Shown piece after piece: positions 6,110-11,648 of a stretch of 59,229 nt of DNA; the stretch's first letter is position 1; the number at the start of each line of letters is the position of its first letter. The translations under genes and the position numbers were made by a program. The notes below the pieces were generated by a model. The model saw nothing but the letters and a program-made list of their open reading frames with translations. It was not told the origin of the DNA and did no database searches. The stretch is taken from positions 1-59,229 of IMG/VR virus record IMGVR_UViG_3300028569_001325; one strand, written 5' to 3'. The stretch is from a virus.

Positions 6110-6130
6110 TAAAAATAATAATAAAAAGAA

Positions 6131-6157
6131 AAACCCACTTCAAAAGAGTGGGTTTTT
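6131..6157. terminator. Bidirectional intrinsic terminator
   Basis: A 9-bp stem AAACCCACT (6131-6139) / AGTGGGTTT (6147-6155) with A/T tracts on both sides. It can end the plus-strand GYF_2 gene and the minus-strand tmRNA. Confidence 0.85.
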
Positions 6158-6161
6158 TAAT

Positions 6162-6572
6162 TGGTGGAGGTGCGGAGGCTCGAACTCCGGTCCATAATAT
6201 CCTGTCAGATAAGGACTACACGTTTAGGTTGACATTTTCTAATGTCCCAAAATATTCAATTTTTAACTTGACTGAAAACAAGATTAGTTTGTTCTTCATT
6301 ATCGTAAACCAACAACCAATAAACGACTCGATTTCGGGTTCAGTCGTATTCCACCTTAAAGGACTTCTGTTGCTAGGTTATATGTCCACCGACCCCCGTT
6401 TCCGTGCTTAACTTAAGCTACAGTAACTTGCTCAGTTGCAATTAAACCAACCACTGAAAGGTTATCTAGTACGTTGCCGTATATAAGTGTGAATCAGTTT
6501 TTAAAGAGATTAATTCAGTCTCTACGTGCCCTTATTCCTCAGCCAATACCTGTCAAATCCATAAACACCCCC
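6162..6572 (-). ncRNA. ssrA: Transfer-messenger RNA (tmRNA)
   Basis: A 411-nt RNA on the minus strand. The 5' end GGGGGTG (6572-6566) pairs over 7 bp with CACCTCC (6172-6166) before an encoded CCA (6164-6162). The 5' part reads TTTATGGATTTGACAGG, the tmRNA hallmark. The T arm is CGGAG-TTCGAGC-CTCCG. AATAAGG near the 5' end can pair with CCTTAT near the 3' end (helix P2). A first pseudoknot is visible: stem AGAGA/TCTCT (6523-6519 / 6509-6505) and loop TGAAT (6517-6513) pairing with ATTCA (6494-6490). tmRNA rescues stalled ribosomes and tags the unfinished peptide for proteolysis. A host-type promoter lies upstream and a terminator downstream, so it is an autonomous unit. Confidence 0.95.
6413..6478 (-). 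other. tmRNA tag reading frame, 21 codons
   Basis: Eleven nucleotides after the first pseudoknot a GGC resume codon opens a frame of 21 sense codons ending in TAA. The tag starts GNVLDN and ends EQVTVA. Gly as first residue agrees with Bacteroidota tags, but the length is about twice the usual 8-12 residues and the end is Val-Ala, not the usual Leu-Ala-Ala. The other two frames from this spot stop after 3 and 5 codons. Confidence 0.65.
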
Positions 6573-6603: not shown

Positions 6604-6634
6604 CAAAGATAATATATTTGTTTTGATTATTCAA
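6604..6634 (-). promoter_or_regulatory. Bacteroidota-type promoter for the tmRNA
   Basis: Minus strand: TTG (6634-6632), 20 nt, TATCTTTG (6611-6604), placing the transcription start about 25 nt ahead of the mature tmRNA 5' end. Confidence 0.7.
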
Positions 6635-6636
6635 TA

Positions 6637-6643
6637 TATTTAT
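6637..6643 (+). promoter_or_regulatory. TATTTAT late-promoter candidate
   Basis: Core 6 nt before the ATG at 6650 and directly abutting an in-frame ATG at 6644. It is back to back with the tmRNA promoter. Confidence 0.5.
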
Positions 6644-6649
6644 ATGAAT

Positions 6650-7807
6650 ATGTTTAAAAAAAGATTTCTATACGAACAAGAAGAGGAAGTTGAATTAAAT
6701 GATTTTCAAAAAATCCTTGCGCTTAATAAAAGACGAATAAGTCCTTCCGATGTTGAGTTTTATAACTCAGAGGGTGAAGATTTTTCAGATCACATAGATA
6801 TAACTTATGACGGGATATTATTTAATTTTGATGGGTTAAAAGATTTTTTACAGTTCTTTTTTCCTGATTATTATGATGATGGAGAATATGATGCTAGTAC
6901 TTATGAGTGGATGTATGGGGGAAATTATGATTGGTATGACGAGTTTTATAATAGAGCATATGATGATTGGAAAGAGGGATATATAGTTTCTGCAATTAAA
7001 AGTGAGAGTTTAAAAAAATTAAAGGAGATATTCAATTATGTTGTCCCACATATTGGTAAATACATAGAAGAAAAAGAAGGAATATATAGTATTACTGATA
7101 GTTCTGGTGAATTAGCAATCACCAATTTTTTAGGAACTTTAGGGGTTGATGATGAAGTCTCAGAAGCATATATTGATGCACAAGTGGCTGCGGTAAGGGA
7201 TTCTGTTCCTAAATATATTAAAGACAACCACTGTAATTGTTTAACTGATGTCGGTATAGAAAATTATTCTGAAAGACACTGTTTTTGGAAATATGAAATG
7301 GATTGGGGTTCTGCAATTTTATTATTTGCTCGTTTTGGTACTGAAAACGATAAACTTTTAGATTTATTATTTGAAGGAATAAAAAATTCTAACGTTAGTC
7401 ATCTTCCTGAGTCTTACGAAATTCAACATTATTGTTGGGATCAAGACGAGTTTAATAGAACTTACGTTCGTGAATTGGATAGAGTTTTTAATAAACTTGA
7501 AGAAAAACTTGAAGATAGTGATTTATATAATAAAGAATACCTTAAAGTAATTGATAAAGTTTCAAGAATTGGTGGTGTAGATACGTGGATTAAAGCAAAA
7601 AATCAAAAAGTCCAAGTTAAAATTAATAACATTGATCCAGAAACTTTAAAAATAGATTTTAGTGTTACCCAAGGTAATAATTGGGCAGCAAAAAAAGGTA
7701 GGTCAACTATAGACGATATAATTAACCTACTTAATAATGAAAGTATGTATGGTGCTGAGGAATTTAGAGAACACTATTTAAAATTTCTTCAAAAGACGAT
7801 TCTTTAA
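6650..7807 (+). CDS. Acidic hypothetical protein with short leader
   Basis: 385 aa from ATG 6650; ATG 6644 adds two residues and an upstream TTG at 6623 lies before the promoter element. It opens MFKKRFLYE then QEEE, again an L-x-E motif after a short basic segment. The body is acidic and aromatic-rich (runs such as YYDDGEYDASTYEWMYGGNYDWYDEF) and has Cys/His pairs near 190-210 (HCNCLTDVG... RHCFW). No family recognised. The last 30 bp overlap the convergent peptidase gene. Possibly another packaged protein. Confidence 0.55.
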   Translation: MFKKRFLYEQEEEVELNDFQKILALNKRRISPSDVEFYNSEGEDFSDHIDITYDGILFNFDGLKDFLQFFFPDYYDDGEYDASTYEWMYGGNYDWYDEFYNRAYDDWKEGYIVSAIKSESLKKLKEIFNYVVPHIGKYIEEKEGIYSITDSSGELAITNFLGTLGVDDEVSEAYIDAQVAAVRDSVPKYIKDNHCNCLTDVGIENYSERHCFWKYEMDWGSAILLFARFGTENDKLLDLLFEGIKNSNVSHLPESYEIQHYCWDQDEFNRTYVRELDRVFNKLEEKLEDSDLYNKEYLKVIDKVSRIGGVDTWIKAKNQKVQVKINNIDPETLKIDFSVTQGNNWAAKKGRSTIDDIINLLNNESMYGAEEFREHYLKFLQKTIL

Positions 7808-8833
7808 GATTTCAAAAAGATAAGGTAAATCATCATCAGTAATAAAAACTGATGTACCATCATATATTTCTGAAATTGTAACACCGTCTTTTTCTTCAAT
7901 TACATCAACACTTTCCAATTGGTGAATATCTTCTTCTGAGTAATTATCCAAATCATCATCATCAAAATCAATTAAAGAATTCATAACGGTTTGTGATGTG
8001 TAAACAATCGGTTTATAAACAAACTCGTATTTTTTATACCCAAGTTCTTTAACCATATTTTTTCCAGCCTCAATTGCGTTTTTAACATCATCAATTGAAA
8101 TGAATTCTTGACTTGAGTGCATGTTATAGTAACCACAAGACATATTGATACAGGATACGTCAGATTTCTTCTTCAATTGCGAAACATCAGTATATGGGTG
8201 TGATTGAACCATCATCTCATTTCCAAACGACTCCTCAATTACCTTTAATGACTTTTCAAAAAACTCACTGTCACGATCAAACAAACGAACTCCCGAGCAA
8301 ATCTCGGAGATTAGATGGTTACCTGGAGCATCATATTGTGTGATATACCCAACATCTTTCAAAAAGTTCTCATCACATTTTGAAGATCCGTGACATCCCG
8401 TTTCTTCAGAAACAAATAACCCAATTTTTACTTTGTCTAATTGTTTAAGTAATTCTAAACAAATAAAGATTCCACATTTATCATCTCCACCAATACCTGT
8501 TGGGTTATCGTTCTCGTCATACGCTTTCAAACAATCAACCTCATTATTATCAAATGTTTTGCCGAACGTATTTGGACGAACAAGTTTTTCTTCTTTGACA
8601 ACAATTTTATCAATTTTCATATGAACGGTATCAGTATGAGCAATAAACATTGGGTAAGACTCTCCTTCTGAAAGTTCTCCTTTTGTTGCATATACATTCA
8701 TCATTTCGTCTCTGTAATACGTAACCCCTTCAATGTTGTCCAATTCAGAACAAATATATTCCACCATATCCTCTTCTTGATACGTTTTTGATGGTACTGA
8801 TAATAATTCTTTAAATTTTTCTAAATTGAACAT
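7778..8833 (-). CDS. M20-family metallopeptidase (peptidase T-like)
   Basis: 351 aa, close to the usual length of the family. The dinuclear zinc ligands and catalytic residues are all visible: H66-x-D68 in IAHTDTV, the bridging Asp in GIGGDDKCG (about 117), the general base pair E143-E144 in SEETGCHGS, and H239 near the end of the catalytic domain in YYNMHSSQEF. M20 enzymes remove N-terminal residues from short peptides or hydrolyse acylated amino acids. In a phage, recycling of peptides from degraded proteins is a plausible role. It is a single minus-strand gene, convergent with its right-hand neighbour on the map, and has a TATCTTTG box upstream. Confidence 0.85.
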   Translation of the reverse strand: MFNLEKFKELLSVPSKTYQEEDMVEYICSELDNIEGVTYYRDEMMNVYATKGELSEGESYPMFIAHTDTVHMKIDKIVVKEEKLVRPNTFGKTFDNNEVDCLKAYDENDNPTGIGGDDKCGIFICLELLKQLDKVKIGLFVSEETGCHGSSKCDENFLKDVGYITQYDAPGNHLISEICSGVRLFDRDSEFFEKSLKVIEESFGNEMMVQSHPYTDVSQLKKKSDVSCINMSCGYYNMHSSQEFISIDDVKNAIEAGKNMVKELGYKKYEFVYKPIVYTSQTVMNSLIDFDDDDLDNYSEEDIHQLESVDVIEEKDGVTISEIYDGTSVFITDDDLPYLFEILKNRLLKKF

Positions 8834-9608: not shown

Positions 9609-11648
9609 TTACTTACTTTTTTTCTTTGTTGGTTTTTTTAACTTAACATCCGTTTTTTTATCCGTTTCATTATACGATAAAATAAATGTTGTTCTTTTTT
9701 CTGGATTATCAGATAAAATCTTTTCAGTTATTGCGTCATCAACCCACTTTTGGACTGTACGTTTTAGAATACGAGCACCAAACCTATTATCGGTACCAAC
9801 GGATATTAAATGTTTTTTAAGTGTATCATCAACTTCAACATCAAATTCAATTGCTCTTACTCTTTCATATACCTTATCCAATTCTAAGTCAACGATTTTT
9901 AATAAATCACTTTCATTCAAATCTTTAAAGTATATAATCTCATCAAACCTGTTAATAAATTCGGGAGCGAATTTTTTAAACAATTCTTTTTCTAACACAG
10001 ATTTAACCTCTTCTTCTTTATGTTCAATTTTTGAGCTTGTTGAGAATCCTACCCCTGTACCAAATTGTTGTACTACTCTTGTCCCAACATTTGATGTCAT
10101 TAGTATTACACAGTTTTTAAAGTTAATTTTTCTTCCGTGTCCGTCAGTTAAAAACCCTTCATCTAACATTTGTAAAAATACGTTAAAAATCTCAGGATGC
10201 GCCTTTTCAATCTCATCTAAAAGAATAACTGAATATGGTTTGTTTTTAATTTTATTTAAAAATGGTGAACCATCTTCATACCCAACATATCCAGGAGATG
10301 TCCCTGTAAGTTTTGATGTTGCAATTTTATCTGAGAATTCACTCATATCCAACCTGATGAGTGCGTCCTCACTGTTAAACATATGTTTTGCAAGTTGTTT
10401 TGCAAGTTCCGTTTTACCAACTCCTGAATTACCAATTAGTAACCCACTGAATATTGGTTTTTTAGGATCATTTAAACCAACTTTATTTCTTTGTATTGAT
10501 CTTGCAATTTTTGCAACTGCATCATCTTGACCAATAACTTTAGTACATAAAGTTTCTTTAAGTGTTCTTAGTTGTTCCGTTTCATCCGTATTAATTTTGC
10601 TAATTGGGATTTTAGTCATTAAAGAAACTACATCATAAACTATATCTTCAGTTACTTCACGTTTATTAACGTTTCTATTTTTTTCAAAATCTTCTTTTTC
10701 TTTTTGTAAATCAGATAATACTTTTCTTTCTTTATCTCTAAGATTTGCCGCCTCCTCATATCTTTGGCTATTAATAACCCTAACCTTTTCTTTTTTGATA
10801 TCCTCCGCTTGTCTTTTTAAGTCTTCAATAATCTCAGGAAGTTTTATTTCAACTTGTGATCTGGCACCAACCTCATCAATAATATCAAACGCTTTATCAG
10901 GAAATTCCCTATCTGTAATATATCTATCTGCAAGTTCAACACAAAGAACTAATATCTCATCGGTATATTTTACCTTATGGTGATCCTCATATCTTTCTTT
11001 TGAATTTTGAAGGATTATTAACGTCTCTTCTTTTGTTGATGGATCTACCATAACTTTTTGGAATCTTCTTTCAAGTGCCCCATCCTTTTCAATATTTTTA
11101 CGGTACTCTTCTAAAGTTGTTGCTCCAATGCATTGTAATTCACCACGAGAAAGTGCGGGTTTAAATATGTTTGACGCATCCATTGATCCTGAAGAATTAC
11201 CAGCACCAATCATTGTATGTATTTCATCAATAAAAATAATAATATCAGGATTTAGATATAGTTCTTCAATAATAACTTTCATTCTTTCCTCAAACTGTCC
11301 ACGATATTTTGTCCCCGCAACAATAGATGTCATATCTAAAGAAACTATTCTTTTTCCTGATAAATTTTGTGGACAATCACCCTCAAATATCTTTTTAGCT
11401 AACCCCTCAACAATTGCCGTTTTACCACAACCTGGTTCTCCTAAAATAATGGGGTTGTTTTTTTTACGTCTTGAAAGAATTTGAGCTATCCTATTAATTT
11501 CATTTTCCCTTCCAACAACAGGATCTAATTTACCTTCTTCCGCTAATTTTATTAAATCTCTTGAAAAATTATCTAATACCGGAGTTTTAGTTGATCCTTC
11601 TTGATTTTTATTTTTTGGTTTTTCGCTACCATCCACCGATTCTATCAT
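9609..11648 (-). CDS. ClpC-like AAA+ unfoldase lacking the N-domain
   Basis: 679 aa with both Clp AAA+ modules. D1: Walker A GEPGCGKT (70-77), Walker B IIIFIDE (136-142). D2: Walker A GNSGVGKT (406-413), Walker B VILLDE (474-479), sensor/Arg segment EFINRFDE (563-570). A short UVR-like middle segment (about 280-325, YEEAANLRDKE) marks it as ClpC/ClpA type, not ClpB. The tripeptide VGF at 533-535 sits where ClpC carries its ClpP-docking loop. The usual N-terminal Clp_N repeats are missing, replaced by about 30 polar residues, so adaptor or substrate choice should differ from host ClpC. No clpP is seen here; it would have to use host ClpP. Confidence 0.9.
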   Translation of the reverse strand: MIESVDGSEKPKNKNQEGSTKTPVLDNFSRDLIKLAEEGKLDPVVGRENEINRIAQILSRRKKNNPIILGEPGCGKTAIVEGLAKKIFEGDCPQNLSGKRIVSLDMTSIVAGTKYRGQFEERMKVIIEELYLNPDIIIFIDEIHTMIGAGNSSGSMDASNIFKPALSRGELQCIGATTLEEYRKNIEKDGALERRFQKVMVDPSTKEETLIILQNSKERYEDHHKVKYTDEILVLCVELADRYITDREFPDKAFDIIDEVGARSQVEIKLPEIIEDLKRQAEDIKKEKVRVINSQRYEEAANLRDKERKVLSDLQKEKEDFEKNRNVNKREVTEDIVYDVVSLMTKIPISKINTDETEQLRTLKETLCTKVIGQDDAVAKIARSIQRNKVGLNDPKKPIFSGLLIGNSGVGKTELAKQLAKHMFNSEDALIRLDMSEFSDKIATSKLTGTSPGYVGYEDGSPFLNKIKNKPYSVILLDEIEKAHPEIFNVFLQMLDEGFLTDGHGRKINFKNCVILMTSNVGTRVVQQFGTGVGFSTSSKIEHKEEEVKSVLEKELFKKFAPEFINRFDEIIYFKDLNESDLLKIVDLELDKVYERVRAIEFDVEVDDTLKKHLISVGTDNRFGARILKRTVQKWVDDAITEKILSDNPEKRTTFILSYNETDKKTDVKLKKPTKKKSK

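Follow-up and report, generated by a model that had tools for sequence, protein, structure and literature searches.

The window, by which we mean the whole 59,229-base stretch analysed here, is a linear virus fragment that carries, at positions 6162-6572 on the minus strand, a complete one-piece tmRNA (ssrA) gene of 411 nt with the CCA encoded. The gene specifies a tag of 21 residues that is conserved across related viral loci, and in these loci it is linked to genes for a ClpC-like unfoldase and an M20-type peptidase. We put it at about an even chance that the phage tmRNA, together with host SmpB, tags stalled chains and that phage ClpC with host ClpP, followed by the peptidase, recycles them.

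ARAGORN and Rfam model RF00023 returned identical, exact bounds for the tmRNA, and the Rfam match runs from position 1 to 374 of the 374 in the model (107.1 bits, E 6.8e-41). These results bear out an earlier sequence-only reading of this DNA, which had recognised a phage tmRNA with acceptor stem, T arm, encoded CCA and first pseudoknot; the covariance-model search that it had proposed as a check of the fold gave this full-length match. On the minus strand, the 5' strand of the acceptor stem occupies 6566-6572, with G3 of the G3-U70 alanine-identity pair at 6570, while the 3' acceptor strand (6166-6172), the T arm (6173-6189) and the ACCA end (6162-6165) were placed by the covariance model and by pairing and covariation in relatives. 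Pseudoknot PK1 (6490-6523, minus strand), both stems of which covary, ends 11 nt ahead of the resume codon. The acceptor stem is completely paired in all 28 diverse relatives compared and its G3-U70 pair is invariant, with compensatory pairs that include GGGGGTG/CACCTCC, GGGCCCG/CGGGTCC, GGGTCCG/CGGATCC, GGGGATG/CATCTCC and GGGGGTA/TACCTCC. Over the acceptor stem, PK1 and T arm together, both sides were altered in 17 pairs, a count reached by none of 500 shuffles, and the covariation collapsed in controls in which the pairing was slid. Upstream of the gene lies a Bacteroidota-type -7 promoter element, TATCTTTG (TAnnTTTG; 6604-6611, minus strand), a motif shared with relatives and present in 41 of the 48 distinct 5' flanks of tmRNAs, whereas shuffles gave 3.7 on average and 10 at most. 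Directly past the gene, an intrinsic-terminator-like hairpin of 11 pairs is followed by a T run (6129-6157, minus strand).

The resume codon is GGC at 6476-6478, beginning at gene nt 95 (window 6478), and it opens a frame of 21 codons, GNVLDNLSVVGLIATEQVTVA, that spans 6413-6478 on the minus strand and closes with TAA at 6413-6415. A single open frame of 21 codons has a chance of ~0.37 and by itself is not significant; the frame is credible because of the comparative evidence. About 75 related viral loci yielded 34 distinct tags, with 21-22 codons in all intact copies and the consensus GNVLNKMxxxGLxRxxEVTVA, and the length varies in whole codons (21 or 22). One source of these tags was a scan of IMG/VR for GG[ACT]AACGT behind a tmRNA 5' motif, which returned 38 loci, nearly all of them tmRNAs, with tags that include GNVLDKMETLGLVRESEVTVA, GNVLNNLETLGLISTQEVTVA and GNVINKLSTIGLIRTEEVSVA; a second, Clp-based retrieval contributed many more, among them GDVLSKMETLGLLRESEVTVA, GNVLNKMAAIGLIREDAAVVA and GETFAKLQAVGLLRTEEVYAA. 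The tag ends in related loci are mostly VTVA, VAVA, VSVA or VVA, and some are VYAA.

Coding selection was assessed on 38 distinct 21-codon tag DNAs (29 peptides) from viral contigs. Residues G1, G11, L12 and A21 are invariant in this set, V3 and V20 are nearly so, and a hydrophobic C-terminus with a terminal Ala is kept in all 38 DNAs. Variability peaks at codon position 3, to a degree matched by 3 of 20,000 column shuffles, and the pooled pN/pS of ~0.52 corresponds to moderate constraint only. The tag frame is under coding selection, and the excess at codon position 3 and the invariant residues uphold the GGC resume codon and the 21-codon tag ending in VTVA that had been read from the sequence. 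Two observations had been named that would count against that frame. A short tag of LAA type was seen in no relative, and an indel in the tag region was seen in a single, visibly decayed copy (L013/L091, both on contig IMGVR_UViG_3300008259_004318), a tmRNA of ~210 nt whose frame is broken past GNVLDNLSVVGL. The peptidase frame of the same contig also contains an internal TAA. The short tag called by ARAGORN, ATEQVTVA (from nt 134), is made up of the last 8 residues of the conserved longer frame, in the same phase, and was rejected as a mis-call. We also considered the tag as an amphipathic helix and discarded the idea, its hydrophobic moment being no higher than that of shuffles. Among other viral tmRNAs encountered, one (L111, 14407-14781) has the resume codon GAC rather than GGC and its tag would read DNVINKLSAVGLIRTEENISVA; two more carry tags of 29 residues (GNVYNSEDMMSIPTSITRVAEEVELAIAA; L040, 1014-1409) and 25 residues (GNNSTHIFNQYPLVGNTQTQYAVAA; L248, 1501-1891) with ends closer to canonical tags.

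For comparison, host-type tmRNAs were collected from viral contigs by their tag pattern, eight of the nine matches being tmRNAs, and by tag type we take these to be from Bacteroidota. Their tags have 9 residues, GENNYALAA or GETNYALAA, in agreement with the short host tags that the sequence-only reading had expected, and in the seven that were measured the GGC resume codon is at gene nt 95-97, compared with nt 95 in the phage gene. The phage tmRNA therefore has the fold, G3-U70, the position of the resume GGC and PK1 in common with Bacteroidota bacterial tmRNAs, but its tag is 21-22 residues long with a mostly VTVA-like end, whereas that of the host has the 9 residues GE[N/T]NYALAA. The short LAA-like end, which is usual for tmRNA tags but does not define them, is absent from the phage tag. 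A search of 84,980 bacterial and archaeal species with a narrow, non-exhaustive pattern of 5' end plus resume codon gave no GNV-type tmRNA. Within the reach of this narrow pattern, a chromosomal origin of the GNV tag was rejected: none of the 11 matches was a tmRNA by ARAGORN and their sequences were chance-like. In viral sequences, G(E/D)-type tags sought downstream of that 5' pattern gave essentially chance matches, and the same tmRNA was found in no named isolate in INPHARED and in no plasmid.

Both protein genes of interest, which the first reading had missed, are also on the minus strand. The ClpC-like Hsp100 unfoldase (679 aa; 9609-11648) was identified with Pfam and PDB and has two AAA+ domains and a VGF ClpP-docking loop. 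Its Pfam families are AAA_2 (5e-56), AAA, AAA_lid_9 and ClpB_D2-small, with no N-terminal Clp_N domain among them, and its best PDB relative is S. aureus ClpC, to which it aligns only from ClpC residue 144, so the N-domain is missing. In ClpC and ClpA, the N-domain is the usual docking site for adaptors and substrates. The phage Clp shares its pair of AAA+ modules, its KYRG and GYVG pore loops and its VGF loop with ClpC/ClpA unfoldases, and it retains the Walker A/B motifs, but it differs from them in the absent N-domain. A VGF or IGF loop is present in every complete phage Clp of the set retrieved from the tmRNA, and by this motif the phage Clp may dock on host ClpP. Between clp and the tmRNA lies the gene for an M20/peptidase-T-like metallopeptidase (351 aa; 7778-8833), identified with the Pfam M42/M20 and PepT models and with PDB, where its best match is peptidase T. 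The predicted enzyme diverges from peptidase T (E 7.6e-5), but the HTDTVH, GGDDKCG and EE-GC motifs and later D/H positions of that M20 enzyme are invariant or nearly so among phage copies. H66, D68, D117, E143, E144, D168 and H239 are invariant in nine diverse copies, and from what is known of M20 we presume that these residues have metal-ligand or catalytic roles. Between the peptidase and the tmRNA, on the opposite strand, is a gene for a 394-aa protein (6623-7807, plus strand) that has no match in Pfam, PHROGs or NCBIfam. Its family is present in 70 of 81 related loci by neighbour clustering, and the protein could be an adaptor or could be unrelated.

The window encodes T4-like terminase, portal, gp23-type capsid protein and prohead protease, and because Flavobacterium phage immuto is among the nearest isolates, a host in Bacteroidota is likely. 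When retrieval started from the tmRNA, clp was found in 37 of 38 contigs and the peptidase likewise in 37 of 38, the exception being the contig with the different 29-residue tag (L040). When it started from Clp, a tmRNA was present in every one of the 43 loci whose downstream DNA extended for 5.6 kb or more, and each of the 60 tmRNA matches lay on the clp strand, 1.9-5.6 kb from clp. The Clp relatives that have no tmRNA are cut by contig ends, and the nearest to an exception (L115) has 5.5 kb downstream. As a control, loci collected with the Clp of another huge phage contained a tmRNA in 1 of 80 cases and the peptidase in 0 of 80. The clp and tmRNA genes, joined by the peptidase gene in 29 loci, run against almost all of the other conserved neighbours, which suggests that clp-tmRNA(-peptidase) is a distinct unit. 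In one subclade the peptidase is inverted and still adjacent. The wider neighbourhood, structural genes included, is also conserved in order in the related loci, and since these loci represent one virus clade the linkage does not prove that the parts interact. A search of 24 records gave no phage ClpP, and SmpB was found neither in the window nor in more than 3 of the 61 related records searched, so a phage SmpB was rejected as a regular partner and the system would borrow both SmpB and ClpP from the host. The three clade members with an SmpB gene are the L010 contig (G003, 19419-19826), where it adjoins the tmRNA on the opposite strand, and the L116 and L130 contigs.

Parts of this arrangement are found in other phages. 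An M20 peptidase of this type occurs in 12 of 50,697 named phage records, seven of which are Cellulophaga phages. The two of these that we examined, the cultured phages phi38:1 (KC821614; L265, 2172-2531) and Calle_1 (L264), each have a one-piece tmRNA in which a frame of 30 codons, GNNTNAVNAQIEANMEAVNAILNLEVAVGV, begins with GGA at gene nt 89; the tag called by ARAGORN has a later start (AQIEAN...). The M20 peptidase lies 1.3 kb downstream of the tmRNA and is 33-38% identical to that of the window, and the two genomes contain no related Clp. The 636-kb phage LR756504 has a tmRNA (L272; 280507-280863, minus strand) with a 24-codon frame, DNVNSFEQSILNELFAPVEMAVAA, that starts at GAC, and an M20 peptidase 130 kb away. 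The peptidase without a tmRNA was seen in Brevibacillus phage Jenst, and a related Clp without a tmRNA in the huge phages LR756502 and LR745206. The crAss-like phages have tmRNAs without this Clp; theirs are two-piece, with tags of 13-17 residues that begin GN. Two-piece (permuted) tmRNAs of Chryseobacterium phage MA9V-3 and crAss-like phages (L259-L263) carry the tags GNVIDINKYVAKLEVAA, GNFYVTDYTRIAA, GNNFVTDYTAIGA and GNNFVTDYTQLAVA, and in MA9V-3 a single-domain ClpX-like ATPase lies ~4 kb from the tmRNA (PMC13120357). The 484-kb phage LR756508 has a tmRNA (L242, 1501-1944) in which GGC at nt 97 may open a frame of 36 codons, GVNNADYESAGFTAEDFAQMDGESLYHGSERKPAAV, known from a single sequence, and a second match of 112 nt that comprises the tRNA-like domain only (L245). 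Those frames of these other phages that are known from single sequences are less secure than the 21-codon family. GOLLD RNAs occur in two ~640-kb phages (L078, 14037-14443; L079, 17538-17943), in each case next to tRNA genes and a ClpC-like gene.

In the pathway that we favour, the phage tmRNA would be transcribed from its own Bacteroidota-type promoter, charged with alanine and assisted by host SmpB in the rescue of stalled ribosomes, and GNVLDNLSVVGLIATEQVTVA would be appended in place of the 9-residue host tag. The N-domain-less phage ClpC may recognise the extended tag and pass tagged chains to host ClpP, the peptidase-T-like enzyme would trim the resulting peptides, and the phage would thereby possess its own route to tag, unfold and digest while infecting. 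Recognition of the tag by the Clp is proposed because of the linkage and because, in a parallel case in Mollicutes, an extended tag is read by Lon (PMC9382460). Whether this goes as far as a self-contained viral tag-and-destroy system, with its own 21-residue degron written over that of host ribosome rescue, a dedicated and co-evolving unfoldase that borrows host ClpP and a peptidase that finishes the peptides, is a more tentative matter, for which we would put the chances slightly below even; the extended tags of other Bacteroidota-phage lineages would, on that reading, be parallel solutions. We counted in favour of the pathway the independent recurrence of a tmRNA with the related M20 peptidase in phi38:1 and Calle_1. 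Against it we counted the tmRNAs that occur without this Clp (phi38:1, Calle_1, crAss-like phages), the Clp without tmRNA in LR756502 and LR745206, a ClpP partner that is not phage-encoded, a tag pN/pS that is only moderate and helix amphipathicity no greater than in shuffles.

Another account, which we judge unlikely, is that the phage tmRNA boosts rescue and the tag is read by host ClpXP, ClpCP or Lon, with the phage Clp and peptidase acting elsewhere, for example in capsid assembly or host-protein turnover. The hydrophobic C-terminus and terminal Ala of all 38 tag DNAs are consistent with this, as are the VYAA ends that come near the host NYALAA, the use of E. coli SsrA variants ending in LVA or AAV as degrons (PMC9382460) and the Cellulophaga and crAss-like phage tmRNAs that occur without this Clp, but it leaves unexplained the conservation of 12 extra residues and the linkage to clp in 43 of 43 loci. 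We consider it improbable that the tag is instead a stabilising or reassigned one, which would free ribosomes and replace the host degron by one that host proteases ignore, with truncated phage proteins spared or protease capacity saved. The canonical LAA end is indeed absent and extended tags recur in unrelated Bacteroidota phages; however, the tmRNA is inherited together with a protease system, and a tag that is ignored would not require 21 conserved residues with invariant positions. The sequence-only reading had offered that rescued peptides might be left undegraded or sent to another protease. Its phage tmRNA with a long tag stands, and the second outcome gains support because a ClpC-like unfoldase is linked to the tmRNA in essentially every relative; the first has no positive evidence, since a hydrophobic end and terminal Ala are kept and E. 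coli SsrA variants with LVA or AAV ends are used as degrons. Finally, a lack of functional coupling, with tmRNA, clp and peptidase as separate accessory genes that are held together by the conserved gene order of the clade, is very improbable: neighbouring structural genes do keep their order too and the tmRNA and peptidase of LR756504 are 130 kb apart, but the unit persists despite its opposite strand, a spacing that varies from 1.9 to 5.6 kb and the peptidase flip, and the tmRNA and the rare peptidase lie side by side again in Cellulophaga phages.

As to why phages carry tmRNA genes, a long-tag tmRNA tied to a phage unfoldase and peptidase makes it testable whether a virus redirects the degradation of rescued peptides. 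The pathway would also supply orthogonal protein degradation with a new tag-unfoldase pair. Many such tmRNAs are missed or mis-framed by ARAGORN, the standard software. Among known phage tmRNAs, those of mycobacteriophages, Bacillus phage G, Melnitz and huge phages are phage-encoded, as is the one described here. A tmRNA was reported in 402 of 18,146 phage genomes (PMC9004378), huge phages have been reported with tmRNA and SmpB (PMC7162821) and ten tmRNA phages are listed in PMC4131195; in these three papers we found nothing about long conserved tags or about a tmRNA linked to a Clp unfoldase and a peptidase. Phage tmRNAs as such are known, but our searches of the open PMC literature, subscription journals being outside this scope, turned up neither a conserved extended phage tag nor its association with Clp and peptidase genes. 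A close parallel is in Mollicutes (Mesoplasma florum, Mycoplasma), where a likewise long, non-LAA tag is matched to a particular protease. The mf-SsrA tag of Mesoplasma florum is longer than usual, ends in NYAFA, an ending that is in none of the related viral tags, and is read by mf-Lon (PMC9382460), and the extended mollicute tag and Lon co-evolved according to Ge and Karzai 2009, as cited in PMC9382460. The mollicute tag, however, is a cellular one and its protease is Lon, whereas here a viral tag of unrelated sequence would be recognised by a viral ClpC-like unfoldase.
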